Shown here in pieces: positions 2,590 to 22,964 of a stretch of DNA of 31,195 bases; the stretch's first letter is position 1, and the number at the start of each line of letters is the position of its first letter. The notes below the pieces were generated by a model. That model was given only the letters and a program-made list of their open reading frames with translations, was not told the DNA's origin and did not search any database. Position numbers and translations under genes: made by a program. Source of the DNA: a virus. The stretch lies in the IMG/VR virus record IMGVR_UViG_3300025102_000161, positions 1 to 31,195 of that record. The stretch is one strand, 5' to 3'.

Positions 2590-5500
2590 GTGTTAGGTTC
2601 TCCTATAGACCTCGCTTGGTCTAGTATACTGGATTCTATCTACCTAAAAAAGGCCTCAGACTGGAACGCACAACATAGAGCGAGCAAGGTCCGTTCTATC
2701 GTAAATGCGGCAAAAGGCGATACAGGAGAAGACATCCAAAAAGAACTGGACACTTTATTGTTAGACGACTATTCTCGAGACTTGGGAGGGCTCAATGCCC
2801 TGCGTAAGGCACTACAGGAGCATTACATAGATAAGAACGGACAGTTGCAAACTATAGACGACCCGACGGACGCGGATTCTCCTGACTCTGTGTGGGAGTC
2901 AGACCCCTACATTAGTGAGGCTGTGCACCACGCTCTGAACGAGCACACTAGTAATGTGTACAATGATGCGTCCGTGAGGAGAGACATGGACGCTGCCATC
3001 GCTGCTCGTTATGTTTCTAACATTCCCGATTTTAGATTGCGTAGAAACAAAGTCCACAAAATGATGGACTTAGCAAGTGAAGGTAGGGCTTGGGGTAGTC
3101 GTGCACCCAGCATGACCCAAATAGACGATGAAATGAAATCTTTGCAAGAGATGCTTGATTCTGGAGAGGTGTTGCCTGATGACATAGCAGACCTTCCTCA
3201 ATTAGGCCCTGGCCACATTAGGCGTGTGGCAACAGAGAGAGTGAAAGAGAGGAACAGTCTAGACAACCCGTACGATAGACGTGGTTTAGGTTCTACCTTT
3301 GCTGACCCTAAAGAGATGTCATATCCTGAGATACGAAGAAAATTACGAGAGTTCCAAGAGGTGTTGGCATACAATTATGCAGAAAGAATGGCGAAAGACG
3401 TATCTGAGTACCGTAAAACAATCTCTCCTGAGACGTTAAAGAGATTCACTCCTGTAGGTAAGTCATACAAAGACGGTGAAGAGTGGAGAAAGGACTTCCA
3501 GTCTAGAGTAGTAAAGTCTCGAGCATACAAAGACCAATTCGCACGTCGCCTTAAGAGATTGAGAGCAGACCATCGTGATTTACCTGAGGGTTCGGAGTAT
3601 TCTAAGACTCCAGCAGAGATAGAAGAAATGGCTAAAGAGGACACCCTAGACAAGATGTGGAGGAACACTCTACACGATGCTTACATGGAAAGAGGTAGAA
3701 TCCGTGCTACAATGCACCCTCTTTTCCATAGTGTGAAATCACAACTCGAAAATGAAGGCATAGATTTAGACGCTGTTGAGGAAGACAGTGAGGGGATGAC
3801 TAACGAAGTCGAGAAGCAGATGCAGAACAAAGAAGCACAAGATGCTGTTTTCAGAATGTCACACATGATAGGAGTCAGTAAAGGAGCCAAAGGTGGTTAC
3901 GGTGGTCAAGATTGGGAGCAGGAGTATCACGACACAAATATGAGGCAAATTAAGAACGTGTGGGATAATTTGTCCAATGACGCTCAAAAGATACTACTAG
4001 GGTGGAGCATTGCTAGTGGTCCTCTATTAGGTGGTATACTCAAAATGGGTATGAGAGGCACAGCAGGTACTTACACAAAACCGCTCCCGCCGGACGCCAT
4101 AGAGCAATTCGCCGCACATATACACTCATCTAGTGAGAAGCAGAGAGGGAGAGGTGACATACCAGCGACTCACCAAGATGACACTAAGAGAATTATAGCA
4201 GATTATCTAGACGCTATAGATACTGACAGTGGTAGTAGAGAGGATAAAGCAGCCGAAGGTGGTATTACACCAGAAGAGCAGTTTGACCCCGAAACCGGTG
4301 TAAAGAGAGAAGGGCGAGGTAAATTGAGAAATGTCCCTATTACCGACCTCGGTTGGCAAAATGCTGAATATCAAACGCCGGAGGGAGGAGAGCGTCCCAC
4401 TTTAGATAATTTGATTTCAAAAGCGACCGCTCAAGGTAAGCACGAAGGCGGTTTACCGATGGAGAAGAAGTTTCTCATAGATACAATGCACCAATTAATC
4501 AACCCAAGCGAGGAAGATAACACCAACATTCTCTCTCGCAGCACATCCTCCTTGGACCCAAGTATGTGGTTGGAAGGTAAAGTAGCACCTGGTATGCAAG
4601 CCAATCAAGCACTTAGTGCGATTATTCACCAAGGCACGATGAGAGACGACTTCAATATGTACCGACAACACAGGAGAATGAAAAGACTGAGGAAACTCCT
4701 TCTTGACTACAATGGCAATCCCAAATCATACTCTGACATCGTCAAAGACCCTGGCTTTAATGAAATCTACAATGAAGACAGTTACGCTCAACTGAGGAGA
4801 GTAGGGCAAACTAGTAAGGAGAAAGAGCAATTCTTGTCCAGTTTATCAGGGAAGATGGATGAGTTGAGGGCTTGTCCGGAATGTAACGAACATGGTCACT
4901 ACCCTGGCACTAAGAATAACTGCTTAAGTGCAGGTAGTTCAGCAGGTCAGTGTTATGGGGCATTCCCAGGAAAAGGACAAGAACATCTAGCAGGTTATCT
5001 AAGACCCATGTCAGTAGCCCACAGAGAAAATGCCAGTTCGAGGAAGTTCATAGAGGGCTTGTTTGGCGATTTATTGGGTACTATCGAGCAAGACGGAGAG
5101 AGAGTACCTCACATGGACTGGTTTCAAGGGCACCACGAAGTTCCTACTTATCAGATGGGGCTCTTGGCTAAAGCAGCGAGAAGCGACAGAGAAGCCGCTC
5201 ACAAAATGAACATGACCAAAATATGTCCTAAATGCCAAGGCAGTGGTGAAATGATACTCGATGGTGAACCCATAGGGATAGAATGCCTCCAATGCAGACA
5301 TGTCGGTAAAAGAGTAGACGGTTTGATGCGTATACCTGACATGGCTGCCTTCTACGTCAGCAGAGGTTTTGGCTCTCCTGCTGGTATGCAATCAGAGATT
5401 CGTAGAGTTCAAGAGACTCATAAATTGAAGTTGAAGATTCGTGACCGATTATATGGTAGGGGGACTACACCTGCTAGTCAAGAGCAAGAGGCTGCACAAG

Positions 5501-8500
5501 AGTCTCTTGAGAGAGGCATGATACCAGCGGATGGTTCTACCACCCCTTTTGAGATACACCCTCTTACTCGTTGGCCGGATTTGCATACAGAGAAGGGACC
5601 TCTCAGTGAAGAGGGGCTAGGTAAGGCGCGTTCTGCAGCAGTTTCTGCTCTAAACGCGAACCCTCTAGACAGAATGTCAGACAGGAAAGATTTCATCAAA
5701 CAATACTTGGTTAATCACTACAACGAGATGTTTGCTAGAATAGCAGAATCATTAGACCCAGTATCAGCAGAGATTGTCAACAAGTCTAACCCCGAAACGA
5801 TAACCGAGAGTGGTTTCTTCAAAGAGTTGTTAGAACTCATGAGCGCAGACCTTCCTTACAACAGCGAGAATCCCTTGCAACTAAGTGCTCGTGCCATGAA
5901 CAGAGTCCGCTCTCACATGACTCACGCCCACGCTCCGGACTTCGACGGAAGGAACATGCATGTAGACTACGGACTCATGGAACAGGGACCATGCACATCT
6001 TGTGACGGAAGTGGGCACCCGTTGAGTGGGCTAGGAGAGCCTGTCATCTCACATTACTGTCCTGATTGTATAGGGACCACTAGTGAGGGTGTGCATAAGA
6101 TGCTCAAAAGAAACCCATGGATTAGAAGAGCGTATTCTAGAGAGCACTTGCTTGATATGTATCGCAACGGTAAACTAGAACAAGAACTAGGCAGGACTCC
6201 CTCCTATCATAACAACAAGTACCTAGACAGCGCTGGTTGTCAGTGCCATACTTGTCAAAACGGAAAAGCACCCTTATATCACACAGCAGTCGGCGCTCCT
6301 TCTCTATTCTCGAGTGGCTCTATGGCTGACAAGTTTAGGGCTACCATGTTTGCCAAGAATCCTGTGCCTAGACAATTACCAGTGAGTATGGACCCAAACA
6401 CTGTAACTGCCAACGACGCTTTGTATAATGAGATTCACAGCGCTCTCAAAAGATTCAGAAGTATAGGAGACAGTCCCAACCAACCGTTTGGTACACTGCA
6501 AGAAGACATGACTCTAACAGATTTGACCGACGAGGACATAGAGAAGGAGATAGAGAAAATACACTCAATGTTGAGCGGTAAAGATGCAAGGGATGCGTTG
6601 ATGGCTTTTCACCAAGAGGAGAACATCGTTCCAGATTTTGGTGATACATGGAACTCCGTACCATATCTCATAGACGACGACGCGAAACCTGAGGATTACA
6701 CTTCTGACAAAATGTTAGACATGCCATGCCCTTATTGTAATCGCTTAAGCAGTCTTGGGTTGTATAAAGGGGAAGTCAAAACCATAGGTCAGCATTTGAA
6801 AGAAGGAATGACGGGAGATTTGTCTTTCACTACTTGTCCTGTTGCTCAAGAGCGTGGAGATAGCGAGGATGGTAATCTATCGAAGATGACCATGGATATC
6901 AAAAACAATTACTTCGGTCCAAACAACAAAAAGAGAGACGAAGTGGAGTTAAAATGGGAAAAAGTGTATGAGTCGTTAGCACCTACACTACAAGAGATGA
7001 CAGGGAAATATAAGGGCAGTAGAGGTGCTTTAGATGCACACGCTGTACAATATGCTTTATCTCCAGGTATTGCTTTGAGAGTTCCTACCATTGCGCCAGT
7101 TGCTCCTATAATGATAGCACAACGCAGAGCGGCATCGGCCACTGGTCACAATCGAATGAACGACCCCAATAGCAGAACTAGGGGTAGATTCTCCGGTCTT
7201 ACTTGGGGTGTCAACACCCCCACTTCTCAAGACAATCCCTATGCCATGATTAGATTGGCGAAGGAGGCAATACCTACCAATGACCACAATAAAGGAAAGG
7301 TGATGAGACTTTGGGCTCTTCACATGCTCGACCCTGATTATATGGTTGAACAGCATGGCAATCCACTAGACTATCGCCCTGCTGATATTGGTGATATGGG
7401 TGAGATTAAGAGAGTTGATGAAGAGAGGGAAAAACAGTTGACGTGGGCTCGAAAGGTTCTAGGGAAAGGTAAGGGCGAATCATTAGACGAGTCAGAGAGG
7501 AGAGAGTTAGACCATGGCTGGAAAACTTTGCAGCCGTTGTTGCATCTAGAGAGAATGTGGAAAAACGATGTCTCCACACCCGAAAGGAAGGCACTGTGGG
7601 ATAATATAGACTTCGACCTCCCGAGTTCTATGTTCAACTTCGATAAACCCAACACTTTCATGCATGACGACAATACTTTCGATAACATGCTCAGTATTGT
7701 CAAAACTTGGGCTCACGACCGTTTGGCCTCCGCCACAGAGGGGGGTTACAATGCAGATGATGCTGGTTACAAGCAACCTTTCGAGAACCACCCTAGTATG
7801 GAGTGGTTCTACAAGAACAGCCACAAGCATGTCAACTCTAGATTGTTAGTGGCGTGGAAAGAGCATGATGATGAGGTTTTACGCGGGTTTGGTGATGAAT
7901 GGGTAGTAACTGGAAAGTCATTACCTGAGATAGAAAACTCCGGTTTGATGGACAAACTATGGGAGGGAGTCACCAATGGAATGCCGATTACGACAGTGAG
8001 AGACGGTAGGAACTTCATACTTGACGGTGACAAATGGCCCACTTTAGAAGAGGTCAAAGGAATGGGGCACGCTAATGAGGTTACGATTGCTAAATGGTAC
8101 AAACTCCGAAAAGAGGTGATGCTCAGAGCAGATAATAGAAAACTGAGCAAGCAGCGCATGTCTGACGAAGGGCGAGAGTACGCACAAACTGGGGCCAACG
8201 ATTTAGGGACAGGGACTCGATGCATGGTCTGTCTAGGTAACAGAACTCACATGCCAGGAATGAATGACGCTCAATTTTGGTGGTCAGCGGCAAATCCACA
8301 CATGGAAGGAGACATGGAGTCCTACGTTCCACACGTCAGTGACAATGAGGGAGGGAGAAGAAAATTAGAGATGCTCGGAATGGAAGGTTTTGAGGGACAT
8401 ACACCTAAGTGGACTCATCCTGACTCTATCAAGTGGGCTCACGACCATATGAAAACAGCACATGGTCATGAGGGAGAAGAAGGGTGGAGAGATTTCTTTG

Positions 8501-11500
8501 AAGAACAAAAGAGACACGGTATCATACCCAGCGATTGGGAAGTAGTAGATTCAAACGGAATCTATACTGACAATTACGTAAATTGGCTAGTCGGTCAAGA
8601 GCCGGAATGCGTTGCTTGCGGAGGCACTAGTCATTGCCATGATTGTGGAGGAGGAGGTTACAGCCCAGTGCCTTTTAGTGTAGAAGCAATGAACCAACAG
8701 AGAAACATCCACTTACTGAAAAGGCTAATTGAGTACAAAGGTAATGGGACGGTGATAGGTGATGATGGTGTCTTCTATGCTAATATGATGACCCCGATGT
8801 GGAGAAAACCAGTGTCTCAGATTCTTGCTGATTGGCAGATGGGTCTACCTGTAGGAGATGCCCTGCAGCACTTGGTCGCACACACTCCTCAAGGAGAGGC
8901 TATGTTTACTCATGAGGGTCTTTGGACTACTGACGAAGATGGTAAACAGAAGGTGGTCGGTAGTAAGAAAGAGTATGATAAAATACAACGCTCGGAATCC
9001 AAGGATTTCATAATCCGAAGGATAATCGAAGGAGAAGATGCGTACGCGCGGCATTTACAAGAAAGAGCAAAGCAGATTTACCCTGATGGTGAGATACCAC
9101 CAACTTGGTCTTGGCCGAGTCCGGACAAGCCTTACACTGGTTTTGATGAGAGACTTAAGAAGTGGTTGGAGACTGCCAGCCCCAATGATAAGAGAAGACT
9201 GCACGAACTATCTGTAAAGGCTGACAGAACTCTTAGGTCTGGTTTGGACAGGCAGGATGTGGATTTAGGTAAATATCCACCGGAGTACTCAGGCCTCTCA
9301 ATTAAACAACTTCAAGACAAAGCCAAGAAACTCTTCACAGGCAAAGACTTCTTGGTGTCACCAGGACAGACTGTGTCCGGTGACACATTCCTCAAACCAA
9401 TAATGAACCCACAAGCCGAAGTTACCTCATTCAACGATTGGAAATTAGGGGAATTGATAAACCACGATGAGTTGAAGATTAAGAATAAAGGTCCTGTTTG
9501 GCTTAATAACAACTTTGAAGATATAACCGGCAAGACTCTGGACCCTGAGGGACGTTTCAGCGAAGAAGATATTCTAAGATTGATATATGCAAATAGAGAA
9601 TACAAACACTACGGAAATGATACATGGCCTTCTTGGTGGACTCCTAACCACAATGAGGGCGTGCACAAAGACAATTACATTCACGGTAGAGATGCGTTTG
9701 GAGGTGAAGGTGAGGGGCCTACGAGGTGCGGTCACGCAAATTGTGGCAAGATACCCATATATGGTCCTAAACGCATAGGAGACAAATACAACCCATACGG
9801 GTCTTTTTGTGAAGACCACCACCTAGAAGAGATGCATAGAGTACACACTAGGACAGAAAATCTAGTGGGGGGTAGAAATATATTCGGTGGCCAATCGTTG
9901 TTGCTTGATATACTAAACTCTACTCATCTAGATGAAGAGGAGATAGAAGCAGCATTTAGAGGAGAGAAGTACGGCGAGGAAGGTCTTTTCCGAGGACATG
10001 GTCAGTTAGCAGGTTTAGGTCTGTCATTTTTAGGTTTCAAAAAGATAAAGGGGACTAATGGGAACTCTGACCATTTCATGCCTTACTTCGAGGGACCTCT
10101 AGGTAGAGTAGGAACTGCTGCCGATTTCGGTTTGGGCCATGAGACCTCTAGACCAGGAAGAAGGGGGATAAGGGGGGACTCGCTATTAGACTCTGAGTTT
10201 TGGCAACCTAAAAAGCGCGGCGCTGATGTAGAAAACAGAGGGGTTTCTTTCTTCGATGGGCATGGTTGGGACTATCACCAAACAGCCAATTCACTACCAC
10301 TCATTAGACTCAGTGGTATCAATGAGAAAATAACAAGCAGAATGGAGCAAGACCCTTATCGGAACCAATGGAAGACACCGCAACAGAAATCAGTATGTCC
10401 GGATTGTTTCTCCTTAATACCAAAGACCGTAGAAGATAACCAGTCAGATGAGGCTCGTAGATTCTTCGATGAAAAAGGAAGATATCCTCAAATTATACCT
10501 GATTGTCCCTCATGTGGGCGTGAGCATGGCTACTACACAGTAAACAAACAGGACAAAGTAGTCTACCAAAGAGACATCCCTAGAGGCGACCACGTACATG
10601 CAAGAGATTTACTTTTCAAGACTAACCATGTCGGTGAACCTGTTTTGACTAATCACCAAGAAGAGTTGAGGGCTAGAACACGACTGATAGAAAGATTAGA
10701 AGCAGTCGAGAGAGGAGAGAAAGACCCTTACAACCAAAGAGAGGACGAGCCCCTTTCAAGATGGTTCAAGTTTTCCGGAAACACTGTAAAATTGAAACCA
10801 GGAGACCCACGACCGGAAGAGGGGACTAATGTCCGGCCTGAGGAAATAATCCAATCTCTACGACACATACTAGTCAAGAGAGATAAGTTTGGTGTAATAG
10901 AAACGAACAAGGACGGCATGCCAAAATACTCTAAGGACCATGCAAAATTAATAGAACAAGCCAAGACCATATTAGACCCGAAATACAGACTTCCTGTAGT
11001 TCATTCCGGTTTTGGTTCTAGAATGGGCCATCACCTTAATCCGACTCAAGACACTTTCAGAGGCATGCACACAGTAAGTGCTGCCGATAAGGTAGTAGAA
11101 AACATAAACAATGTCCTAAAGAACAACAAAAGCAACTTACAGAAATTGTCTACTAAGATAGATAACGCCTTCATGAGATTATCTAAAGGTAAGATTGAGG
11201 ATACTAGAGACATTGGTATGGTGAGAGAAATAGGCAATACTGGCATACAGCAATACGTACGTAGTTCAAAAGCCCAAGATGTTATTAGGGCCGCTAAAAA
11301 AATAGTAGAGCAGAGTGCTTTACCTACATCATTTGCTATAGGAGATGACAAAAAGACTAGGGACTTAAGAGACGCCCATCTAATAATAAACATGCTCGAG
11401 AGGCTAGATGATATTAAGACAAGCGCACATAAACACCAAGATTTCGGACGTCTGATGTTATATAGTGACACTCGTTCTCATTTTGCGGAAGACGCACGTT

Positions 11501-11859
11501 TGAGTGCAGTAACCACCGCTAATCAACAATACGCGACTGGTGTACTAGGTGCGATGCGTAATGGTGTGAGGGCAGCCGCCATACCGATGAATGACGACGT
11601 CGATGCTGATACTAGAGCCTCTTACAAGCGGTTTAGTCATGGGATACGACCACAGTCCTATCATGACATGATGTCACAACACGAAGACACTGCTAGAGAA
11701 CAATTCAATAATTGGAGCAAGGACTACTTCCAATATGCTAATGATGAAGGAGATGGACCTACACAAGAACAAACGACCTCGGAGCAGGACATTAATCAAC
11801 CTAGAGGTATAGAGGTTCGTGGCGATGATGGTGAGTGGCAACCGTATAGTAATTCTTGA
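2590..11859 (+). CDS. Giant zinc-cluster protein (3089 aa), probable virion component
   Basis: A single open frame of 3089 codons from GTG 2590; a TAG lies in frame at 2584. No Shine-Dalgarno is visible. The protein is hydrophilic and charged, with no signal peptide. It opens with PIDLAWSSIL (residues 5-14). A mildly hydrophobic Gly-rich stretch lies near 468-488. Cysteine clusters occur at about 762, 879, 1135/1138 with 1157/1160, 1217-1222, 1380/1383, 1878/1881, 2007-2019, 2380-2407, and 2603/2606 with 2639/2642. Several read C-x2-C-x-G-x-G (CPKCQGSG, CTSCDGSG) or CHDCGGGG, as in the DnaJ zinc domain. No enzyme motif was recognised. Its size and position in the virion cassette suggest a giant internal or tail protein, or a polyprotein; this is inference. 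Confidence 0.85.
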   Translation: MLGSPIDLAWSSILDSIYLKKASDWNAQHRASKVRSIVNAAKGDTGEDIQKELDTLLLDDYSRDLGGLNALRKALQEHYIDKNGQLQTIDDPTDADSPDSVWESDPYISEAVHHALNEHTSNVYNDASVRRDMDAAIAARYVSNIPDFRLRRNKVHKMMDLASEGRAWGSRAPSMTQIDDEMKSLQEMLDSGEVLPDDIADLPQLGPGHIRRVATERVKERNSLDNPYDRRGLGSTFADPKEMSYPEIRRKLREFQEVLAYNYAERMAKDVSEYRKTISPETLKRFTPVGKSYKDGEEWRKDFQSRVVKSRAYKDQFARRLKRLRADHRDLPEGSEYSKTPAEIEEMAKEDTLDKMWRNTLHDAYMERGRIRATMHPLFHSVKSQLENEGIDLDAVEEDSEGMTNEVEKQMQNKEAQDAVFRMSHMIGVSKGAKGGYGGQDWEQEYHDTNMRQIKNVWDNLSNDAQKILLGWSIASGPLLGGILKMGMRGTAGTYTKPLPPDAIEQFAAHIHSSSEKQRGRGDIPATHQDDTKRIIADYLDAIDTDSGSREDKAAEGGITPEEQFDPETGVKREGRGKLRNVPITDLGWQNAEYQTPEGGERPTLDNLISKATAQGKHEGGLPMEKKFLIDTMHQLINPSEEDNTNILSRSTSSLDPSMWLEGKVAPGMQANQALSAIIHQGTMRDDFNMYRQHRRMKRLRKLLLDYNGNPKSYSDIVKDPGFNEIYNEDSYAQLRRVGQTSKEKEQFLSSLSGKMDELRACPECNEHGHYPGTKNNCLSAGSSAGQCYGAFPGKGQEHLAGYLRPMSVAHRENASSRKFIEGLFGDLLGTIEQDGERVPHMDWFQGHHEVPTYQMGLLAKAARSDREAAHKMNMTKICPKCQGSGEMILDGEPIGIECLQCRHVGKRVDGLMRIPDMAAFYVSRGFGSPAGMQSEIRRVQETHKLKLKIRDRLYGRGTTPASQEQEAAQESLERGMIPADGSTTPFEIHPLTRWPDLHTEKGPLSEEGLGKARSAAVSALNANPLDRMSDRKDFIKQYLVNHYNEMFARIAESLDPVSAEIVNKSNPETITESGFFKELLELMSADLPYNSENPLQLSARAMNRVRSHMTHAHAPDFDGRNMHVDYGLMEQGPCTSCDGSGHPLSGLGEPVISHYCPDCIGTTSEGVHKMLKRNPWIRRAYSREHLLDMYRNGKLEQELGRTPSYHNNKYLDSAGCQCHTCQNGKAPLYHTAVGAPSLFSSGSMADKFRATMFAKNPVPRQLPVSMDPNTVTANDALYNEIHSALKRFRSIGDSPNQPFGTLQEDMTLTDLTDEDIEKEIEKIHSMLSGKDARDALMAFHQEENIVPDFGDTWNSVPYLIDDDAKPEDYTSDKMLDMPCPYCNRLSSLGLYKGEVKTIGQHLKEGMTGDLSFTTCPVAQERGDSEDGNLSKMTMDIKNNYFGPNNKKRDEVELKWEKVYESLAPTLQEMTGKYKGSRGALDAHAVQYALSPGIALRVPTIAPVAPIMIAQRRAASATGHNRMNDPNSRTRGRFSGLTWGVNTPTSQDNPYAMIRLAKEAIPTNDHNKGKVMRLWALHMLDPDYMVEQHGNPLDYRPADIGDMGEIKRVDEEREKQLTWARKVLGKGKGESLDESERRELDHGWKTLQPLLHLERMWKNDVSTPERKALWDNIDFDLPSSMFNFDKPNTFMHDDNTFDNMLSIVKTWAHDRLASATEGGYNADDAGYKQPFENHPSMEWFYKNSHKHVNSRLLVAWKEHDDEVLRGFGDEWVVTGKSLPEIENSGLMDKLWEGVTNGMPITTVRDGRNFILDGDKWPTLEEVKGMGHANEVTIAKWYKLRKEVMLRADNRKLSKQRMSDEGREYAQTGANDLGTGTRCMVCLGNRTHMPGMNDAQFWWSAANPHMEGDMESYVPHVSDNEGGRRKLEMLGMEGFEGHTPKWTHPDSIKWAHDHMKTAHGHEGEEGWRDFFEEQKRHGIIPSDWEVVDSNGIYTDNYVNWLVGQEPECVACGGTSHCHDCGGGGYSPVPFSVEAMNQQRNIHLLKRLIEYKGNGTVIGDDGVFYANMMTPMWRKPVSQILADWQMGLPVGDALQHLVAHTPQGEAMFTHEGLWTTDEDGKQKVVGSKKEYDKIQRSESKDFIIRRIIEGEDAYARHLQERAKQIYPDGEIPPTWSWPSPDKPYTGFDERLKKWLETASPNDKRRLHELSVKADRTLRSGLDRQDVDLGKYPPEYSGLSIKQLQDKAKKLFTGKDFLVSPGQTVSGDTFLKPIMNPQAEVTSFNDWKLGELINHDELKIKNKGPVWLNNNFEDITGKTLDPEGRFSEEDILRLIYANREYKHYGNDTWPSWWTPNHNEGVHKDNYIHGRDAFGGEGEGPTRCGHANCGKIPIYGPKRIGDKYNPYGSFCEDHHLEEMHRVHTRTENLVGGRNIFGGQSLLLDILNSTHLDEEEIEAAFRGEKYGEEGLFRGHGQLAGLGLSFLGFKKIKGTNGNSDHFMPYFEGPLGRVGTAADFGLGHETSRPGRRGIRGDSLLDSEFWQPKKRGADVENRGVSFFDGHGWDYHQTANSLPLIRLSGINEKITSRMEQDPYRNQWKTPQQKSVCPDCFSLIPKTVEDNQSDEARRFFDEKGRYPQIIPDCPSCGREHGYYTVNKQDKVVYQRDIPRGDHVHARDLLFKTNHVGEPVLTNHQEELRARTRLIERLEAVERGEKDPYNQREDEPLSRWFKFSGNTVKLKPGDPRPEEGTNVRPEEIIQSLRHILVKRDKFGVIETNKDGMPKYSKDHAKLIEQAKTILDPKYRLPVVHSGFGSRMGHHLNPTQDTFRGMHTVSAADKVVENINNVLKNNKSNLQKLSTKIDNAFMRLSKGKIEDTRDIGMVREIGNTGIQQYVRSSKAQDVIRAAKKIVEQSALPTSFAIGDDKKTRDLRDAHLIINMLERLDDIKTSAHKHQDFGRLMLYSDTRSHFAEDARLSAVTTANQQYATGVLGAMRNGVRAAAIPMNDDVDADTRASYKRFSHGIRPQSYHDMMSQHEDTAREQFNNWSKDYFQYANDEGDGPTQEQTTSEQDINQPRGIEVRGDDGEWQPYSNS

Positions 11860-11964
11860 TATTATTATTCTATTCAGTAATAATAATTACTCTATTTTAT
11901 TATTGAAGAAAAGGGTAAGAAAATCAAGAAGGCGGTCAGTCTGCCAGCAGTAGGTATATGTGCT
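11860..11964. other. AT-rich intergenic gap with hairpin
   Basis: This 105-base gap follows the giant gene. ATTATTATT (11861-11869) pairs with AATAATAAT (11879-11887) across a 9-nt loop, followed by T-rich sequence to about 11900, which could end transcription. CTATTTTATTA (11892-11902) could serve as a TATA-like element for the next operon. The frame of the gene at 11965 stays open upstream to a TAA at 11884 but offers no ATG, GTG or TTG, so the true start of that gene is not certain. Confidence 0.45.
11861..11887 (+). terminator. AT hairpin after giant gene, possible terminator
   Basis: An all-AT 9-bp stem begins two bases after the stop of the giant gene and is followed by a T-rich run. 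The low stability of AT pairs makes a bacterial-type intrinsic terminator doubtful, but a T-rich archaeal terminator is plausible. Confidence 0.35.
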
Positions 11965-12573
11965 ATGCCCGAGTCCCGAAGACAGGATGATAGTATGACT
12001 ATGAGCAGCATGCCTCCAATTCAACCGCAAGATACTAACGCAGACGAGATAAGAGTATTAGGTCTAATCACCTTCGTTTCTGTACTAGTCGGTGCAGCAA
12101 TTGGGGTATTCGATGCTGGACTATGGCTGAAACAAGATGGGGATGTTAGAACTAACGCTTTCACTTACGCAATGGCTGCTTTCACTCTACAAGGAATGTC
12201 TTTCGTTCTCTACAAATTACTTATGCAACAATCGCTCGACCATAGAGCATCTTTTGCTAGAATGGACAGAGAGAGGGCACGTAAGATGCAAGGGATGCAA
12301 CAGGCAATGGCCAATAAGCAGATGGAGGTTGAAATGAGGTTGCAAGAAGCCCAATTCTTAAGACAGTTGCAAATGCTTGAATATAAGAATGATAACGAGA
12401 TGCTCCACATAAACGCCGACGCATTACTTTCTGAATCTGAGGCAGAATCGGGTGTCCCTTCTCATAAAGCCAGTAAGGGCAATAGTATAGATTTAGGCGG
12501 GACGTCCGCTGTTAGTCAGAATAATAAACACTCAGTGCGTGACAGGAATGGCAAGTTTACTAAGAAGGGCTGA
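11965..12573 (+). CDS. Two-pass membrane protein with coiled coil (202 aa)
   Basis: A 202-residue protein with two likely membrane helices, about residues 31-50 (LGLITFVSVLVGAAIGVF) and 65-87. A long charged, Gln/Met/Glu-rich stretch (about 90-150) then looks like a coiled coil. The C-terminus ends RDRNGKFTKKG. The ATG at 11965 has no clear ribosome site; ATG 11995 is an alternative, and the frame is open further upstream without a canonical start. It is followed by another small membrane protein and a small GTPase, with gaps of 2 and 8 bases. The three may act together at a membrane, but no family was recognised. Confidence 0.7.
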   Translation: MPESRRQDDSMTMSSMPPIQPQDTNADEIRVLGLITFVSVLVGAAIGVFDAGLWLKQDGDVRTNAFTYAMAAFTLQGMSFVLYKLLMQQSLDHRASFARMDRERARKMQGMQQAMANKQMEVEMRLQEAQFLRQLQMLEYKNDNEMLHINADALLSESEAESGVPSHKASKGNSIDLGGTSAVSQNNKHSVRDRNGKFTKKG

Positions 12574-12575
12574 TT

Positions 12576-12824
12576 ATGGGTTGGCTTTTTCACACTCCTA
12601 GCGACGATGCGACAGAGGCTACGTTGAAGGCTTTGCACTGGCAAAACACCTTAGACAACTATTACGAGCGTGGTTGGGGATGGGCTCGCACTTTACTATT
12701 TACTACTACTGCAGTATTCATCACCTCTTGGGTTGAAATGGCATTCGACATGAGTATTTGGGACAGAACCGTAGACTGGTTTGTCTCTTGGGCTCAAGCC
12801 AAGATAGACTCGATAAGTGGGTGA
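12576..12824 (+). CDS. Small single-pass membrane protein (82 aa)
   Basis: An 82-residue protein starting two bases after the preceding stop. The first 35 residues are polar with several aromatic residues. One membrane helix spans about residues 37-53 (ARTLLFTTTAVFITSWV), and a second, weaker amphipathic Trp-rich stretch follows. It lies between a two-pass membrane protein and the GTPase, with only 8 bases to the latter, so co-expression is likely. It could be a holin-like or anchor protein, but no signature supports either. Confidence 0.62.
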   Translation: MGWLFHTPSDDATEATLKALHWQNTLDNYYERGWGWARTLLFTTTAVFITSWVEMAFDMSIWDRTVDWFVSWAQAKIDSISG

Positions 12825-12832
12825 TGATTTGA

Positions 12833-13552
12833 ATGGTAGGCGTTACGGGTTCAATACTGATGGGAGCCATAGTATATGGCAAGGAATTGTACAATTTTCT
12901 CAAACCAAGAAGAGTGGGAATATATGGCCCGACAATGGTAGGGAAGACTACTTTGGACAGATTTATGACTACACCAGGAGAGATGGAAGATATAGAGGAA
13001 AGAACCGACCACGACCCTCGTTTGATAGGAGGTGGACATGTTCTTCCCAAGGCTACGCGAAAGAGAGTCAGATGGCACGGAGAAAAGAGAATAGTTCATT
13101 CTGCCGATGTGGGTGGCCAACAACGATTTTGGAACCTATGGATAGAAGATATGGTGGAAAGACAAGTAGAGATTGTCGTATTCATGGTAGACCATCGAGG
13201 GAAAGTTGGGGGCAACGCAGATATCATCGACGCAGTGGGAGGTTTGGAGTTTCTCGTAGACGCCTTAATCGCGAGGGATTGGAAATACAGGAGTTTGAAG
13301 ACATGGTGGAAAGGCAGAAAGTACGCCCCCACTCAAATATGGGTAGTGGCAAACAAAGCCGATTTGTGGTGGGACGACAAAGCAAATATCCTTTGGCAAT
13401 CAAAAAGATTGAGAGAACACCCTATTTTCGACCCTTATCGTCCTTCTATGGTGAAACTCCAAAAAGCAGGCATTCCCTGCAGAGTATCAATGATGGCTAC
13501 CAAGATAGGTTGGAACGTCGAGCAGAGCATGCTAGAAATGCTAAGTTGGTGA
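12833..13552 (+). CDS. Arf/Ras-type small GTPase (239 aa)
   Basis: A complete small GTPase. The P-loop (G1) is GPTMVGKT at residues 32-39. G3 is DVGGQ at 92-96, the form typical of Arf and G-alpha proteins rather than the DTAGQ of Ras/Rab, with the switch-II glutamine kept and F-W following. G4 is NKAD at 174-177, after the strand IWVVA. G5 is probably S-M-M-A-T-K at about 219-224. Residues 3-15 are weakly hydrophobic (VTGSILMGAIVY) and might be a membrane contact, as N-terminal helices are in Arf. It should bind and hydrolyse GTP as a switch. It follows two membrane proteins, which suggests action at a membrane in host takeover, assembly or exit. The partner (GAP/GEF) is unknown. Such GTPases are unusual in virus structural operons. 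Confidence 0.88.
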   Translation: MVGVTGSILMGAIVYGKELYNFLKPRRVGIYGPTMVGKTTLDRFMTTPGEMEDIEERTDHDPRLIGGGHVLPKATRKRVRWHGEKRIVHSADVGGQQRFWNLWIEDMVERQVEIVVFMVDHRGKVGGNADIIDAVGGLEFLVDALIARDWKYRSLKTWWKGRKYAPTQIWVVANKADLWWDDKANILWQSKRLREHPIFDPYRPSMVKLQKAGIPCRVSMMATKIGWNVEQSMLEMLSW

Positions 13553-13559
13553 TATTAAA

Positions 13560-14543
13560 ATGATGAATAGATTTAACCCCTTAACAATAAATAGCAGTCA
13601 ACAACCCTTGGCTAGTCAAACAAGTCAAGAAATGCGTAGAGTAGCCGCTAACTCACAAGTACCGTTAGCACAACTACAAGGTCTCGCGCAAGCACAGACA
13701 TATATGCAAGACGCTGCTTTACAAAGAAGTATAGAAATACCCAAAGTTAATTTCTACCCTTCAAATCATGGCAACCCGAAAAAGGCAAGAAGGGCTGATA
13801 TTAGACAGGCTTACAAATTACTGTCTCCGACAAAGAGAAGCGTTTTTGACCCTCGTAGATATTGGTTTGGGGGTAAATATCAATTTGTTGGCGATTCAAC
13901 TAGATGTTGTATAGAAGGGTGTGATGTAGATGAGTTAATTCGCGCGGCAGGTAATGTCTATGATATGATTAAAGATGAAGATACCGGAGAATCTCTTTGG
14001 GATTTATACTTCAAAGACCCAGTCACTGGTGAGGCTAGGGCTTTCCAAGCGCGTGAGAGAGTGACTGGTGGTAGAATACTACGAGCGACTTATTGCCCTG
14101 AGCATTTACATCTTTATCATTTATTGACTAAATGGGAACGTGCTGAACAAGAAGAGGAAGGTGCTAGCACTTCTAGTCTTAAAAACCGCCTTAACAAAGG
14201 AGTTTCGATGGTTACAGTACCTGTGACCTCACTCGCCATGAGAGACAACACTCCACCTCAATTAAATGCATACCAGCCATTCTTCGATATGATAAAGAAA
14301 GACAACATCCCAGTGGTTCGTCTCAAGAACGCAATGGGTGAGAACGAACAAACAATAGTCATTTTCGATATGAGGCAATTCCAAACTGGTGGTAACAGTC
14401 GTATGATAACTGACGCTAATATCAGTGCCCCACCCATGAATATGGATTTACCAACTCCGGCAGCGACTATGGGTCTCTCGGAACTGTTAAGCCAAACGGC
14501 TCCTCCGCCTTTACAGGTAGAGAGTGAGGAGTTGGCACAATGA
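13560..14543 (+). CDS. Unknown zinc-site protein (327 aa)
   Basis: A 327-residue protein starting at ATG 13560, seven bases after the GTPase stop. The first 60 residues are Gln/Ala-rich. A compact domain follows with C116, C117 and C121 and later Y-C-P-E-H (C179, H182), probably one zinc site; the C-P-E-H half-site is shared with the proteins at 1244 and 1501. A Glu-rich linker lies near 198-205, then a basic stretch, and the last 60 residues are Pro/Met/Gln-rich. No function is recognised. The stop overlaps the next ATG (ATGA), so the two are probably co-translated. Confidence 0.62.
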   Translation: MMNRFNPLTINSSQQPLASQTSQEMRRVAANSQVPLAQLQGLAQAQTYMQDAALQRSIEIPKVNFYPSNHGNPKKARRADIRQAYKLLSPTKRSVFDPRRYWFGGKYQFVGDSTRCCIEGCDVDELIRAAGNVYDMIKDEDTGESLWDLYFKDPVTGEARAFQARERVTGGRILRATYCPEHLHLYHLLTKWERAEQEEEGASTSSLKNRLNKGVSMVTVPVTSLAMRDNTPPQLNAYQPFFDMIKKDNIPVVRLKNAMGENEQTIVIFDMRQFQTGGNSRMITDANISAPPMNMDLPTPAATMGLSELLSQTAPPPLQVESEELAQ

Positions 14544-15178
14544 CGTTTGGTTTTGGTACTCCTCAACAACCTCCTAGTGGCGCTCTATCACTCGGTTTAC
14601 CTAATAATCAACAAAGTTTACCAGCACAAAATGGACTAGCAATGGGTGGGTGGGGGCAACAACCACCACCTGGATACAACCCATATCAACAAATGGGGGC
14701 AGGAATGATGGGAGCGATGGGCTTGAACCCCTCCACTGCTGAATTAGCACCACCTAGCGATTTGGAAGTCATGGCGGCACTGATTCAGACAAGTGTACCT
14801 GTAGATAGGTGGCTCGCAGGCCCAAATATGGAAATGTTAGTATCTCTACTCTACAAAGTGACTGCTCTAGCGACAGTAGACGTCTTGAAGAATGTCAGCA
14901 TTTCTGAAACCGAAGACGGCAAATTAGCATTTGATTTTAGTGGTTTTGAGAATGCCCCTACTGCTGACAGCGTGACAATGGACTCTAACAACCTCAAAAA
15001 TGCTGCAACTATGACTAGAGACCAAGCAATGCAACAACAGCAAGCGATTCTAAACACAGTACAGCAGAATCTGATGAGTGGTGCATTGAATGCTGCAATG
15101 GCTAACCCAGGCATGATGGAAAGCGTTGGTAGTGGTGTAGGTAGTTTATTTAGGGCTACTCTAGGGATGAGGACGTGA
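14540..15178 (+). CDS. Unknown protein with Pro/Gln/Gly-rich head (212 aa)
   Basis: A 212-residue protein with GAGGAG upstream and an ATGA overlap with the previous gene. Residues 1-70 are low complexity (Pro, Gln, Gly, Met, e.g. GWGQQPPPGYNPYQQ) and should be disordered. Residues 75-150 form a likely folded helical domain, and the rest is Gln/Ala/Met/Gly-rich. There is no catalytic motif. Disordered heads of this kind occur in virion assembly and membrane-linked proteins, but the role here is unknown. Confidence 0.6.
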   Translation: MTFGFGTPQQPPSGALSLGLPNNQQSLPAQNGLAMGGWGQQPPPGYNPYQQMGAGMMGAMGLNPSTAELAPPSDLEVMAALIQTSVPVDRWLAGPNMEMLVSLLYKVTALATVDVLKNVSISETEDGKLAFDFSGFENAPTADSVTMDSNNLKNAATMTRDQAMQQQQAILNTVQQNLMSGALNAAMANPGMMESVGSGVGSLFRATLGMRT

Positions 15179-15182
15179 TAAT

Positions 15183-15425
15183 ATGGTAATGGGACCAGTT
15201 AACGATTTGATGTTCGGTCTGCATGATATGACAATGGTCAAGAAATCATCAGTGGTTGATATGATAATGGTTCAAGTAATCAGCCTTGCGTTGGGCGCTT
15301 TCTTGTTGATAGCATTCTCCGCTTACGACATGGACCAAAACGAGTTGATGTATTCAATGGCTTTCCTTTTCGGAGCCACTTTCCTCACTGGGATAGTCTA
15401 CCGAAGACTCGGGGATACTGGCTGA
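15183..15425 (+). CDS. Two-pass small membrane protein (80 aa)
   Basis: An 80-residue protein with two membrane helices, about residues 24-48 (VVDMIMVQVISLALGAFLL) and 55-73 (LMYSMAFLFGATFLTGIVY), joined by a short acidic loop with a basic tail (YRR). Its size and topology fit a holin or a small assembly membrane protein, but no family signature is visible. It closes the plus-strand operon that contains the GTPase. Its last 72 bases overlap the end of the minus-strand gene that runs toward it. Confidence 0.65.
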   Translation: MVMGPVNDLMFGLHDMTMVKKSSVVDMIMVQVISLALGAFLLIAFSAYDMDQNELMYSMAFLFGATFLTGIVYRRLGDTG

Positions 15426-15695
15426 CCATTTGAGTAACGGACATTCGCTATTAGTTAGTTTAGTCTTGTAGTTCAAGAAACAACCACATAAGTTACATTT
15501 ACTGCCTTTTTTGTGCTCACATGTATCACAAATAGATAGCCTTCTACCCTTCTCTTCTTCACTCACGTGGTTCATTGCCAAAACATCTTTCACTGCTTGG
15601 TTTATGTCGTTTATGGTGTCTTTGTTTAACGGTACACCTAACACTTTTCTCGCCCGCTTCAAACGAAAGGGCTTAGAGCGCCCACCCCACCTCAT
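15354..15695 (-). CDS. Minus-strand Cys-rich zinc protein (113 aa)
   Basis: The only convincing minus-strand gene, 113 residues from ATG at 15695. A basic head (about 1-22) precedes a helix, and then a cysteine module reads C56-x2-C59, C67-x2-C70-x-C72 and C85-P, ending L-L-K-W. This R-L-x-I-C-x2-C ... C-x2-C-G-C ... C-P-x2-K-W pattern is familiar from small phage proteins of unknown function, including the lysine just before the last cysteine group. The module ends near residue 89. The remaining Ser/Glu-rich tail is the part that overlaps the plus-strand gene by 72 bases. It diverges from the plus gene at 15701 with only five bases between starts. Confidence 0.78.
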   Translation of the reverse strand: MRWGGRSKPFRLKRARKVLGVPLNKDTINDINQAVKDVLAMNHVSEEEKGRRLSICDTCEHKKGSKCNLCGCFLNYKTKLTNSECPLLKWSASIPESSVDYPSEESGSEKESH

Positions 15696-15700
15696 GATAC

Positions 15701-16390
15701 GTGAGCGGGCGCGTTACTCGTCAATCTTGTGCTTTCTGCCAGCACGAAGACAGGGATAGTTTAGAGGAAGGTTTGCTGTCAGGTAATATCATACCCAAAC
15801 AATTAGACAAAGACTTAGGATGGAGAGAAGGCACCACTGACAGACACTTCCGAAATCACATGGGGGAATACCATATGGGCTCAAATAGTGAGTGTGTAGT
15901 TTGCACACATCCAGAAAGGGGAGAAGTAGAAGAGGCTTATTTCTCAGGAGGTATGACTACCGAAGCAATAGCAGATGTAATCCAATGTAGTGAGTCTACT
16001 GTTTACCACCATCTAAAACATCATCTCAAGCCACTAGTCCAAAAGAGTGCGGCGAACATCATCTCCGTTCAAGCAGGTAAAGAGATAGACATGATGCGTA
16101 GTAATTTAGAGAGATTGAATGGAGAACTTGATGTCTTCTTAGCAGACGCTGATAGAAATGACCCTGCTTACGTCAAAAACATAGTTAGTCTACACAAAGA
16201 AGTCAGAGATACTCTGACTACTATGGTTAAGTTCCAATCAGAGACTATGGGAGTCAATAACCAAAACATTCAGGCTGATACAGTCAACATTCTCAAAGTC
16301 GAACTCGCTAAAGAATCTCCTGAGGTATGGGCTCGTATCCGTTCTAAGTTGTTGGAAGAAGATGAGGAGGATGTAGTAGATGTCCAATGA
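15701..16390 (+). CDS. terS: Probable terminase small subunit with duplicated zinc/HTH units (229 aa)
   Basis: A 229-residue protein starting at GTG 15701. It contains two tandem units of about 44 residues: C10-x2-C13-x-H ... H49-x3-H53, and C65-x2-C68-x-H ... H104-x3-H108. The C-to-H distances are identical in both. The second unit carries a helix-turn-helix (MTTEAIADVIQCSESTVYHHLKHH). The pattern C-x2-C-x-H-P-x-R, HTH, H-x3-H is common in phage proteins annotated as small terminase or DNA-binding regulators. The C-terminal half is helical, likely for oligomerisation, and ends in acidic residues. With TerL downstream, small terminase that recognises viral DNA for packaging is the best call. 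A transcription regulator is the alternative. Confidence 0.58.
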   Translation: MSGRVTRQSCAFCQHEDRDSLEEGLLSGNIIPKQLDKDLGWREGTTDRHFRNHMGEYHMGSNSECVVCTHPERGEVEEAYFSGGMTTEAIADVIQCSESTVYHHLKHHLKPLVQKSAANIISVQAGKEIDMMRSNLERLNGELDVFLADADRNDPAYVKNIVSLHKEVRDTLTTMVKFQSETMGVNNQNIQADTVNILKVELAKESPEVWARIRSKLLEEDEEDVVDVQ

Positions 16391-20022: not shown

Positions 20023-21555
20023 TTGATTAGCAAGAGAAAACTTCGAGTTAGTGGTCTTGACCCAAACAACCCACCTACTATGCACAGTAGACCTAGGATT
20101 CACCCGTTAGGTGCTTTCAGTAGATTGGCCGGTGGTGGGGTAAGACCAGTTGGCCAATTCGGCCCTGATAATTCATTCGAGTACCCTCATGACATCCAGG
20201 TAGGAGACCCGTCCAAAAACCCTGGATTCTATCAGCGAGCAAAAGACTACTCAAGAATGGCAGAAATGTGGAGTGACCAGCAAAATAGTCTACGACGGTT
20301 GGTAGCGCAGAACCCTAATGCGAGACTACCCGCAGGCTTTGCAGGAAAACAGAATCCTGGTTTTGCTCGAGATTATCTTCACGATGCTGGCCAACGTGAG
20401 GGTTCCAAAGGTGGAAGGAAACCTGAGCAATATATTCTGTACACCAACGATGGTCCCGAAATGTTAGGAGGGGTAGGTGATAGAGGGCCGTTCCACAACA
20501 GACTCGCTAACTTCATGAATCATGTTGTTTCTTTCATTCCAGGCCTACGAGACCCCCAATACAGAAATCAACTCAAAAGAATACAACGTATGCAGAAAGA
20601 TGCGATAAAGGTTCTAGATTATCACACCCGTGGTAAGATGATGAACCCCAATCGTGAGATGTCAGATGCAGATAAGAAGATAGTCAATGAGTTCCTCAGT
20701 ACCTTCTATGTCACAGAGGGTTTGGATGTCAATGCGGCTAAGCGTGCTGCTGCTATGATGACACAAATGCAGAGCGATAACCCTGCAGAGGTCGACAAGC
20801 ACATGAACGAGGCCATTGAATCCGGTGAAACTGACCCACAAAAACTTTTCAATTATGTTAGTCAAAGGATGAAAGTGGGAGACGATGTTGGAGATGTTGA
20901 TTTTGGGGATGAATCTACCGGAGATGTGGCAGATGATGTGCCTGACGGTTCAAAGTTGTCTTACATCCTACCTGAGATAGGGCATACTCAAGGAAAATCA
21001 TACAAGCCGGCAGATTGCGAGTTCGCTCAGCAGTTCTTAGGAGGCAAGCATCTACAGGATACAACAGCAGGAGGTAAAATGGTCAACCTACAACCGAGCC
21101 ACTACAAGGCTTTACGAACTGCTTTGGAGGCTGCTAAAAGAGACGTACACGCAAATGCGAACTCTCACATAAAAGGGAAACTACCTGCTAATCCGGACCA
21201 AAGCGCGTTCGATTTCATACTCAATAATCCTGCATTCAACTCATCGTTAGAAGGCGCATCTAAGACTGCGAGAAATCGTGTCAAAGGCTCTTTGCAGAGC
21301 CTTTCAACCCAAGGACAAAGCGAGCGTATCAGTGCTATGGTTGGTTATGTGCTAGGCAATCCCGAGCACGTTCAGCAAGTCACTCAAGAGAGGGGTATGA
21401 CCAATTACGACCCTGCTCAACCACATACTTATTTCACCCCTCCTGCTGAACAACCTAATCCTGGACAGAACATAGACTTGACTGGGTCGGATGAGGTGCA
21501 ACTCTCAGAACGCGAACCTATTGACCTAGCGTGGAGCATCCTCAAGGGGGCGTAA
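20023..21555 (+). CDS. Unknown virion-type protein ending PIDLAWSILKGA (510 aa)
   Basis: A protein of about 510 residues just before TerL, with two bases between the genes. It is rich in Asn, Gln, Pro and charged residues, with a helical region around 190-290 and a second around 350-460. The extreme C-terminus is PIDLAWSILKGA, the clearest copy of a peptide repeated in other proteins here. The start is uncertain. TTG 20023 has only a weak site, while GAGGTG (19985-19990) lies five bases before an in-frame ATA at 19996, which would add the sequence IGFLHDWDDL. The C-terminal lysine-Gly-Ala codons double as the ribosome site (AAGGGGG) of the terminase gene. No family was recognised. Confidence 0.65.
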   Translation: MISKRKLRVSGLDPNNPPTMHSRPRIHPLGAFSRLAGGGVRPVGQFGPDNSFEYPHDIQVGDPSKNPGFYQRAKDYSRMAEMWSDQQNSLRRLVAQNPNARLPAGFAGKQNPGFARDYLHDAGQREGSKGGRKPEQYILYTNDGPEMLGGVGDRGPFHNRLANFMNHVVSFIPGLRDPQYRNQLKRIQRMQKDAIKVLDYHTRGKMMNPNREMSDADKKIVNEFLSTFYVTEGLDVNAAKRAAAMMTQMQSDNPAEVDKHMNEAIESGETDPQKLFNYVSQRMKVGDDVGDVDFGDESTGDVADDVPDGSKLSYILPEIGHTQGKSYKPADCEFAQQFLGGKHLQDTTAGGKMVNLQPSHYKALRTALEAAKRDVHANANSHIKGKLPANPDQSAFDFILNNPAFNSSLEGASKTARNRVKGSLQSLSTQGQSERISAMVGYVLGNPEHVQQVTQERGMTNYDPAQPHTYFTPPAEQPNPGQNIDLTGSDEVQLSEREPIDLAWSILKGA

Positions 21556-21557
21556 TA

Positions 21558-22964
21558 TTGCCTAGCCCTACAATATCAACAGAAGTAATAGAAGAGATAG
21601 ATTGGGAGATGGCTAAGAAGGATTTTAAGTTCTTCTTTGAGCAGATTTTAGGTTGGCAGTTAGCAGACCATCATGCTAAATGGTTTCATAACTTAAATAC
21701 TCATAAAAGATACTGTGTTAAGGCTTCGAGAGACCATGGTAAATCTACTTTGTTTCTAGGTTATTTGTTATGGAAGGTTATATTCACTCCCAAACTTGAC
21801 ACTATGATATTCAGTCACAGCCTAGACCAATCAATACGACATATGAGAGGACTTAATGATTTGATTGACGGTTCTCCCATGTTGGCTAAGATGAAAGACA
21901 AGGACGCTTGGTCCAAGACATTCTTTGGGTTTACCAACGGCTCTCGAATTAATGCTAAGTCCGTAGGAGGTGGTGTCCGTGGTGCTCACCCCGACCTCAT
22001 ACTTTGTGACGATATTTTGTGGGGCACTACTGAAACTGAACTCCAGAGAGTAGCCTCATGGTTTTATGAAGTGTTGATGCCTACTCTCCATCATACTTCT
22101 CAACTTTGTATAGTAGGGACTCCTTTCACTCCTACTGACCTTTACACAGAGTTGGAGGCTAGGGACGGATATCTCGTAGAGACTTATCCTGCAATTAATG
22201 AGAAAGGAGAACCGCTTTGGCCTTGGAGGTGGTCTTTAGAGGCTTTAGATTTAAGACGGCAAGATATGCCAGCCATCGCATTCACTCGAGAATATCTGTG
22301 CGAACCAATGGACGATATGTCCAGCCTTTTCCCCTCTGCTGTAGTCAATGCATGTAAAGACCCATATCTCCATCTCATGGACAGGCGAGACCCTGATGAC
22401 GACAGTCAGTATTTCATTGGCTGGGACCCTGCTATATCCTCTGACCGTTCAGCAGACTACACTGTAATGATGGTATTGAGAAGGCCCCCTGAGGATACTA
22501 ACCTACTCGAAGTGGTGCATGTAGTCCGACGTAAGGGTATGGATTTCAGAACACAAATCATAGAGATTCAGCGATTGAACAACAAGTTTCGCCCTGAGGT
22601 GATAGAGTTAGAGGCTAACCACTTCCAACGTGTGTTTGCTACGGAACTGAGAGCAGATACAGATTTGCCGATAAAGACCTTCATCAGCACAAAACAAAGA
22701 AGGGAGAGTTTGCTGATGGGTTTGGTTCTTCGATTCGAGAGAGAGCAAGTTCGTCTACCTTGGGCTGACGAGAGAGCCCGTGAAGTCATAAGCCAGTTAG
22801 AGCACGAGTTAATCATGTTCGGTATGAGTAAGACTGGTAAACTAGATAGTATCGCAAGGCATGATGACTTGGCTATCGCTCTTGCTTTAGGTAATTGGGC
22901 GACTACCGAGTTCCGTGAGAGAATTATAGACTTAGATAGTTTAATGTCGGGGTTGATAGATTGA
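21558..22964 (+). CDS. terL: Terminase large subunit, ATPase and nuclease (468 aa)
   Basis: The DNA-packaging motor of tailed viruses. The N-terminal ATPase has a Walker A-type loop SRDHGKST (residues 57-64) after the strand RYCVKA. The motif V-R-G-A-H-P-D then leads into Walker B LILCDD (147-152), and the coupling motif VGTPF follows near 186-190. The C-terminal RNase H-like nuclease begins FIGWDPA (D290) and continues with VIELEANH and the closing HDDLAIALALG acidic pair. Length is normal for the family. The start is TTG 21558, with GGGGGC about seven bases upstream; an upstream in-frame GTG at 21531 would overlap the previous gene and has no better site. It works with the portal and small terminase. 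The next gene starts in its stop (TTGA). Confidence 0.93.
   Translation: MPSPTISTEVIEEIDWEMAKKDFKFFFEQILGWQLADHHAKWFHNLNTHKRYCVKASRDHGKSTLFLGYLLWKVIFTPKLDTMIFSHSLDQSIRHMRGLNDLIDGSPMLAKMKDKDAWSKTFFGFTNGSRINAKSVGGGVRGAHPDLILCDDILWGTTETELQRVASWFYEVLMPTLHHTSQLCIVGTPFTPTDLYTELEARDGYLVETYPAINEKGEPLWPWRWSLEALDLRRQDMPAIAFTREYLCEPMDDMSSLFPSAVVNACKDPYLHLMDRRDPDDDSQYFIGWDPAISSDRSADYTVMMVLRRPPEDTNLLEVVHVVRRKGMDFRTQIIEIQRLNNKFRPEVIELEANHFQRVFATELRADTDLPIKTFISTKQRRESLLMGLVLRFEREQVRLPWADERAREVISQLEHELIMFGMSKTGKLDSIARHDDLAIALALGNWATTEFRERIIDLDSLMSGLID

Follow-up and report, generated by a model that had tools for sequence, protein, structure and literature searches.

Why should a virus carry a small GTPase among its virion genes, directly behind two membrane proteins, and what could such a gene do there? 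To our knowledge, no head-tailed virus of prokaryotes has been described with a Ras-superfamily small GTPase among its core genes, and the assembly and exit of archaeal tailed viruses at ether-lipid membranes are largely unknown. The DNA analysed here (the window) is a 31-kb IMG/VR fragment of 31,195 nucleotides, the full-length relatives of which comprise 100–118 kb. The initial annotation had recognised three reading frames in it, with gaps of only 2 and 8 bases, and described them as a tight unit in which a GTPase follows a membrane/coiled-coil protein and a one-pass protein. The coordinates proved to be right (Table 1), and hydropathy and gene spacing agree with this description.

Table 1 Positions of the genes of the block, the GTPase motifs and the gene next to the block in the window
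Feature	Position	Strand	Basis or conservation
MEM2, 202-aa membrane protein	11965..12573	+	14 relatives, hydropathy
MEM1, 82-aa protein	12576..12824	+	conserved motif, hydropathy
Small GTPase, D-x-GGQ type, 239 aa	12833..13552	+	motifs, predicted fold, selection
G1/P-loop GPTMVGKTT, residues 32–40	12926..12952	+	G32, G37, K38, T39, T40 invariant
G3 DVGGQ, residues 92–96	13106..13120	+	position 96 Q/E/D among relatives
G4 NKAD, residues 174–177	13352..13363	+	invariant
G5-like MATKIGWNVE, residues 221–230	13493..13522	+	nearly all positions invariant
D1, 327-aa soluble partner	13560..14543	+	16 relatives
D2, 212-aa protein, Gln/Pro/Gly-rich N-terminus	14540..15178	+	conserved order, homology to W2
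D3, 80-aa two-TM protein	15183..15425	+	gene order, hydropathy

The GTPase gene and its product

The product of the third gene is almost certainly a small GTPase. The motif set of this class (G1 GxxxxGK[ST], G3 DxxG, G4 NKxD and G5) is complete, and the G1, G3, G4 and likely G5 elements noticed initially are conserved across 25 diverse relatives. G1 (G-x4-GKTT) and G4 do not vary, the G5-like MATxIGWNVE hardly does, and G3 reads D[VIL]GG[Q/E/D]xR in all relatives but one, the sole exception being DIAG, which is still DxxG. Since G3 residue 96 may be Gln, Glu or Asp, the latter two occurring in many members, the position of the catalytic Gln is not fixed. The original suggestion of an active switch is plausible, with the reservation that the catalytic Gln varies.

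Almost all of 80 IMG/VR relatives have the gene complete or nearly so, and it is under strong purifying selection, with pN of about 0.10–0.16 as against a saturated pS of about 0.8. Because pN is low relative to pS and the overlapping same-strand frame of 248 aa (12817–13563) is interrupted in all but 9 of 153 homologues, we consider the GTPase frame to be the real gene and have rejected the overlapping one.

Searches with HMMER gave a score of 12.8 bits for the Pfam Arf family PF00025 (E 0.08), which is under its cut-off of 22.3, and a marginal match to NCBIfam small_GTP (E 0.12). A single-sequence search of the PDB with the GTPase yielded no match, and the best entry in the PDB profile search was 8oun, a GTP-binding protein, at E 0.08. 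The AF2 model of the GTPase (mean pLDDT 74, with the P-loop and switch I being weaker) has the Ras-like alpha/beta fold and matches small GTPases at Z 11–12, namely LokiRagO (12.2), Arf1 (11.5) and GerdArfR1 (11.5). Among 1000 Foldseek-ranked chains, 897 reached Z of at least 8, and nearly all of the matches listed were small GTPases. The P-loop is preceded by an N-terminal hydrophobic helix (residues 4–23), which is only moderately hydrophobic, i.e. below the usual TM hydropathy, and not strongly amphipathic. In this respect it is reminiscent of Arf and SR-beta.

Relationship to other small GTPases

The G3 stretch D-x-GGQ-x-R-FWNLW is of the Arf/Rag type, and the window's protein has both the Arf-type D-x-GGQ with following LW, in DVGGQQRFWNLW, and the N-terminal helix. 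Both motif and profile bear out the earlier reading of DVGGQ as the Arf form, as a D-x-GGQ (Arf/Rag) type. The viral profile ranked Asgard DxGGQ proteins (DxGGQxDFWxLW) first, although the value of E 1e-16 is biased, as this set was picked with the viral profile and was sought only in the relatives of one Asgard genome. Arf was second (E 3e-10), and the Ras, Rag, ArvA and SRPRB-like sets scored more weakly.

In the maximum likelihood tree, the GTPases of the two viral lineages described below are united in a single clade (100/99), the branch of which is very long. They were not grouped with Arf in the free tree, where ArvA was their neighbour; this position is weakly supported (78/77), and the branches are long. 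The constraint uniting the viral GTPases with Arf gave p-AU 0.27, and none of the constraints joining the viral clade with Arf, the Asgard Arf-like set, Rag or Ras was rejected. Hence, as regards the phylogeny called for initially, the viral proteins were recovered together but a specific Arf or Asgard ancestry was not supported by the tree. Since they form a single clade on a very long branch and no alternative joining was rejected, the viral GTPases are a family of their own, assigned to the Arf/Rag type by motif and profile, whereas the tree is compatible with several origins. The D-x-PG G3 of Era/Obg-type GTPases is absent from the viral proteins, as judged by the G3 motif, the tree having been calculated without an Era/Obg set. 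A tblastn search of a collection of 50,697 phage records with the GTPases of both lineages yielded no match. The family adds to the Arf/Rag-type GTPases a diverged branch that is viral and lies beyond Asgard archaea and eukaryotes, and it is thereby relevant to the spread of membrane-switch GTPases.

Genes adjoining the GTPase

The hydropathy profile of MEM2 predicts a TM segment at about residues 31–49 and a weaker one at about 69–87, while the C-terminal half is charged and coiled-coil-like. The motifs GLI... and Y.M.AF..QG are invariant in the 14 relatives compared. In MEM1, the conserved N-terminal motif TPSDDA.E.TLRA.H..NT.D..YER is followed by one predicted TM segment; most relatives show one such peak in hydropathy, and that of the window's own copy is weak (1.35). 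The very AT-rich gap between a giant ORF and MEM2 (11860–11964) contains the inverted repeat TATTATTATT...AATAATAATA, a possible terminator or promoter of the block.

Downstream of the GTPase gene, D1 has five residues (C116, C179, H182, H184 and H187) which are invariant in 16 relatives and form a candidate metal site. The D1 model was poor (pLDDT 60), and the fold search with it found no fold match (best Z 3.6). D3 is the next gene in most relatives of the window lineage and was not seen in this place in the second lineage. Between D3 and the gene designated D4, many window-lineage relatives have a minus-strand ORF that contains CxxC pairs and encodes about 105 aa; it lies at 15354–15695 in the window. 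The region 15701–16390, upstream of the terminase, encodes Cys/His pairs and a helix-turn-helix-like segment with only weak HTH profile matches; its product is a candidate small terminase subunit.

Conservation of the block

The order MEM2-MEM1-GTPase-D1-D2 is constant among relatives with GTPase identities of 54–85%. MEM2, MEM1 and D1 adjoin the GTPase gene at 110 of 114 GTPase loci; the remaining four are truncated where a contig or fetched segment ends. All genes of the block lie on one strand with the virion genes, mostly with short gaps. When the loci were anchored on the terminase, the GTPase was found at 36 of the 37 that had enough upstream DNA; for the remaining one (L138), it is present in an overlapping locus of the same contig (L079), just outside the fetched piece. 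Among virus records anchored on the DNA polymerase, 12 of 23 contained the GTPase, including every one of at least 76.8 kb, and the other 11 are shorter contigs in which the terminase is absent or which end just upstream of it. No sufficiently complete relative lacking the block was encountered among the GTPase-, terminase- and polymerase-anchored loci. The block is therefore core, not accessory, in this virus group. The initial claims that the GTPase is virus-borne among virion genes and forms a set with its two upstream neighbours hold in all testable relatives, so that the refuting condition named at the outset, a lack of the membrane genes beside it in related genomes, did not occur. The unit extends beyond those three genes, since D1 and D2 also belong to it.

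A second, deeply diverged lineage came to light through record G016 (L325), the GTPase of which scored no better than E 1e-33 against the viral profile; it was studied with 86 IMG/VR relatives. Here two hydrophobic proteins (about 140 and 75 aa) are followed by the GTPase, a CxxC...CxxH protein (about 225 aa) and one rich in Gln/Asn (about 235 aa). This five-gene order, with similar sizes, was found in 36 of 37 loci checked, the exception (L440) having a short ORF inserted ahead of the D1-like gene. The comparison of profiles by hhalign argues that the GTPase (99.9%, E 9e-35), D1 (94%, E 1e-7 with W1) and D2 (88%, E 4e-6 with W2) are homologous between the lineages, mismatched control pairs having reached at most 32% and E 5e-4. 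Homology of the membrane genes across the lineages was not supported by this method, which detected none in sequence for MEM2/U2 or MEM1/U1. They correspond only in their place, size and hydrophobicity. Every second-lineage member tested shows two hydropathy peaks in the counterpart of MEM2 and one in that of MEM1; in most window-lineage members, MEM2 has one or two and MEM1 has one.

The place of the block in the genome differs, as it follows the prohead protease/MCP in the second lineage and precedes TerL in the window lineage. That it has been kept intact despite this change is good evidence of a functional unit, and we hold with high confidence that MEM2, MEM1, the GTPase, D1 and D2 constitute one.

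Virus group and host

All eight related records studied in this respect encode PolB, and the halovirus HCTV-5 is among the nearest named relatives of this polymerase. A clamp loader (AAA), a group II chaperonin (Cpn60_TCP1), an ERCC4 nuclease, an HMGL-like gene and a prohead protease (Peptidase_S78) were found in relatives, the evidence being spread over two records. We know of no virus of this group in culture. The published description of Magrovirales (Aoguangviridae and Apasviridae), viruses associated with Poseidoniales archaea (PMC10768690, PMC12999244), comprises genomes of 90–110 kb, PolB, a clamp loader, a chaperonin, an HMG-CoA-lyase-like gene and an HK97-type virion module. The 100–118-kb relatives share these features and are assigned to the Magrovirales type by this comparison of gene content. 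Because of this agreement, the hosts of this tailed-virus group are very probably marine archaea, and from the gene content we infer a Poseidoniales host. A GTPase is not mentioned in the ICTV profiles of Aoguangviridae and Apasviridae or the literature searched on MGII viruses (PMC5332604), an earlier mention elsewhere being possible.

Apparent cellular homologues in three MAGs labelled Cytophagaceae, Maricaulis and Asgard archaeon (L082, L083 and L084) were rejected, as each of the contigs carries viral neighbours; they are likely mis-binned viral contigs, i.e. binning contamination.

Other features of the window

Directly upstream of the block lies a giant ORF (2590–11859; 3089 aa) in which CxxC zinc-ribbon-like pairs are numerous, and several relatives have smaller or unrelated ORFs in its place. 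A second giant ORF (27874–31194, more than 1100 aa) runs off the end of the window. The ORF between the terminase and portal genes (22961–24403) contains a LAGLIDADG-like segment, LDADGYITI.

The peptide PxDxAWxxLK recurs near the N-terminus, and once at the C-terminus, of many otherwise unrelated proteins, most of them from the virion module. In the window it occurs at 2066–2551 (N-terminal) and 21514–21552 (C-terminus of the ORF 20023–21555), and further sites are found in L087–L092 and L099–L104. Of 98 proteins in G001, 11 had the shorter pattern W..[LI]K within their first 60 aa, where shuffling predicts 0.9; G003 had it in 8 of 101 proteins, as against 0.6 predicted, but G008 in only 1 of 100. 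The peptide could be a capsid-targeting or processing tag.

Possible function of the block

The N-terminal helix of the GTPase and the MEM genes, together with the location of D1 after the GTPase like that of ArvC after ArvA, led us to propose a switch held at the membrane. Our leading, albeit tentative, reading is that the block is a membrane-anchored GTPase switch in membrane-linked assembly or exit. MEM2 and MEM1 would be placed in the host membrane and would hold the GTPase there in a complex, with the help of its own hydrophobic N-terminal helix. GTP binding would change switches I and II, whereby D1 and D2 would be recruited or released, and the conserved Cys and His residues of D1 would make it the likeliest regulator or effector in such a GTP cycle. 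The unit would be made with the virion proteins and act late, most likely in the membrane-linked assembly of virions or in their exit from the cell. The block's location among virion genes, together with the absence of any observed loss, argues for a core late role and against accessory host control. The conserved five-gene block names candidate parts of the membrane assembly or exit of archaeal tailed viruses. A more far-reaching version, possible but on the doubtful side, is that a GTP-driven membrane machine of a switch, two anchors and two soluble partners predates the split of the main lineages and remodels or breaches the archaeal membrane for assembly or exit. If true, release would depend on a GTPase, in a manner that resembles neither holin/endolysin lysis nor ESCRT budding.

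The block might instead hijack a host membrane process (secretion, vesicle shedding or cell polarity) or block superinfection, and small membrane proteins are a common means of superinfection exclusion in phages. Vesicle shedding in Euryarchaeota is controlled by the small GTPase ArvA with small operon partners (PMC10927574), which also points in this direction. However, host-control genes are usually patchy between relatives, whereas no sufficiently complete record lacks the block, which stays among virion genes, and we regard such control of the host as unlikely. Nothing in the analysis pointed to host polarity, a role considered initially.

A role on entry, with the block as a virion or DNA-delivery component, its proteins packaged or tail-associated and acting at the host membrane, and the GTPase timing or directing genome delivery, would fit a core block which is part of the virion-morphogenesis module in each lineage and adjoins head genes in the second. 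Nevertheless, it lies within the tail genes in neither lineage, its membrane proteins resemble residents of the host membrane and we know of no precedent for a nucleotide-cycling switch inside a virion, all of which makes this role distinctly unlikely. It is very improbable that the GTPase is a targeting receptor of the SRP-receptor-beta type for viral membrane proteins: an Arf-like domain behind an N-terminal hydrophobic helix and adjoining membrane genes recall SR-beta, and the second-lineage profile matched Asgard SRPRB-like proteins at E 2e-6, but the match of the window-lineage profile to the SRPRB-like set was negligible (probability 7%) and no SR-alpha-like partner was recognised in the block.

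Comparison with known systems

Switch proteins of the membrane-anchored kind favoured here can be set beside four groups of GTPases. The Rab/Ran-like GTPases of giant eukaryotic viruses are likewise virus-encoded small GTPases and gave fold matches in BFVD; they are annotated as Ras/Rab/Ran-family proteins, whereas the present one is of the D-x-GG type and belongs to a fixed membrane cassette of head-tailed viruses. Rag/Gtr and the Asgard Rag-like proteins share the D-x-GGQ G3 and include the best fold match, LokiRagO, which is tied with Arf1 and ArfR1. In contrast to them, the viral protein stops at the G domain, without a C-terminal roadblock-like domain, and the tree does not resolve their kinship to the viral clade. 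Eukaryotic Arf/Arl and Asgard ArfR resemble the viral GTPase in the D-x-GGQ...LW G3, the N-terminal helix before the P-loop, the Arf-like G5 and the fold. They differ from it in that the virus-encoded protein has a longer switch I, an insert between the central strands and NKAD and a variable catalytic Gln, and shares no tree clade with Arf.

In the comparison with the cellular ArvA/ArvB/ArvC system (OapABC in Haloferax; PMC10927574), the viral block differs by its two upstream membrane genes. The fetched ArvA homologues have a D-M-P-G G3, by which the Asgard ones compared had themselves been picked, while the viral G3 is D-x-GG[QED] with one DIAG. The G3 and the absence of the ArvB and ArvC partners rule out that the viral GTPase is ArvA: neither ArvB (DUF2073/OapB) nor ArvC (DUF2072) was matched by Pfam among the window's block proteins or by NCBIfam among its partner proteins. 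On the other hand, the small archaeal GTPase of each system carries a hydrophobic helix at its N-terminus, and its operon is conserved and includes a downstream Cys/His partner, D1 here and ArvC there, a zinc-ribbon protein and proposed GAP encoded within two genes after ArvA in most archaea (PMC10927574). The Arv system acts on the membrane, and its operon is the best working analogue of the viral block.
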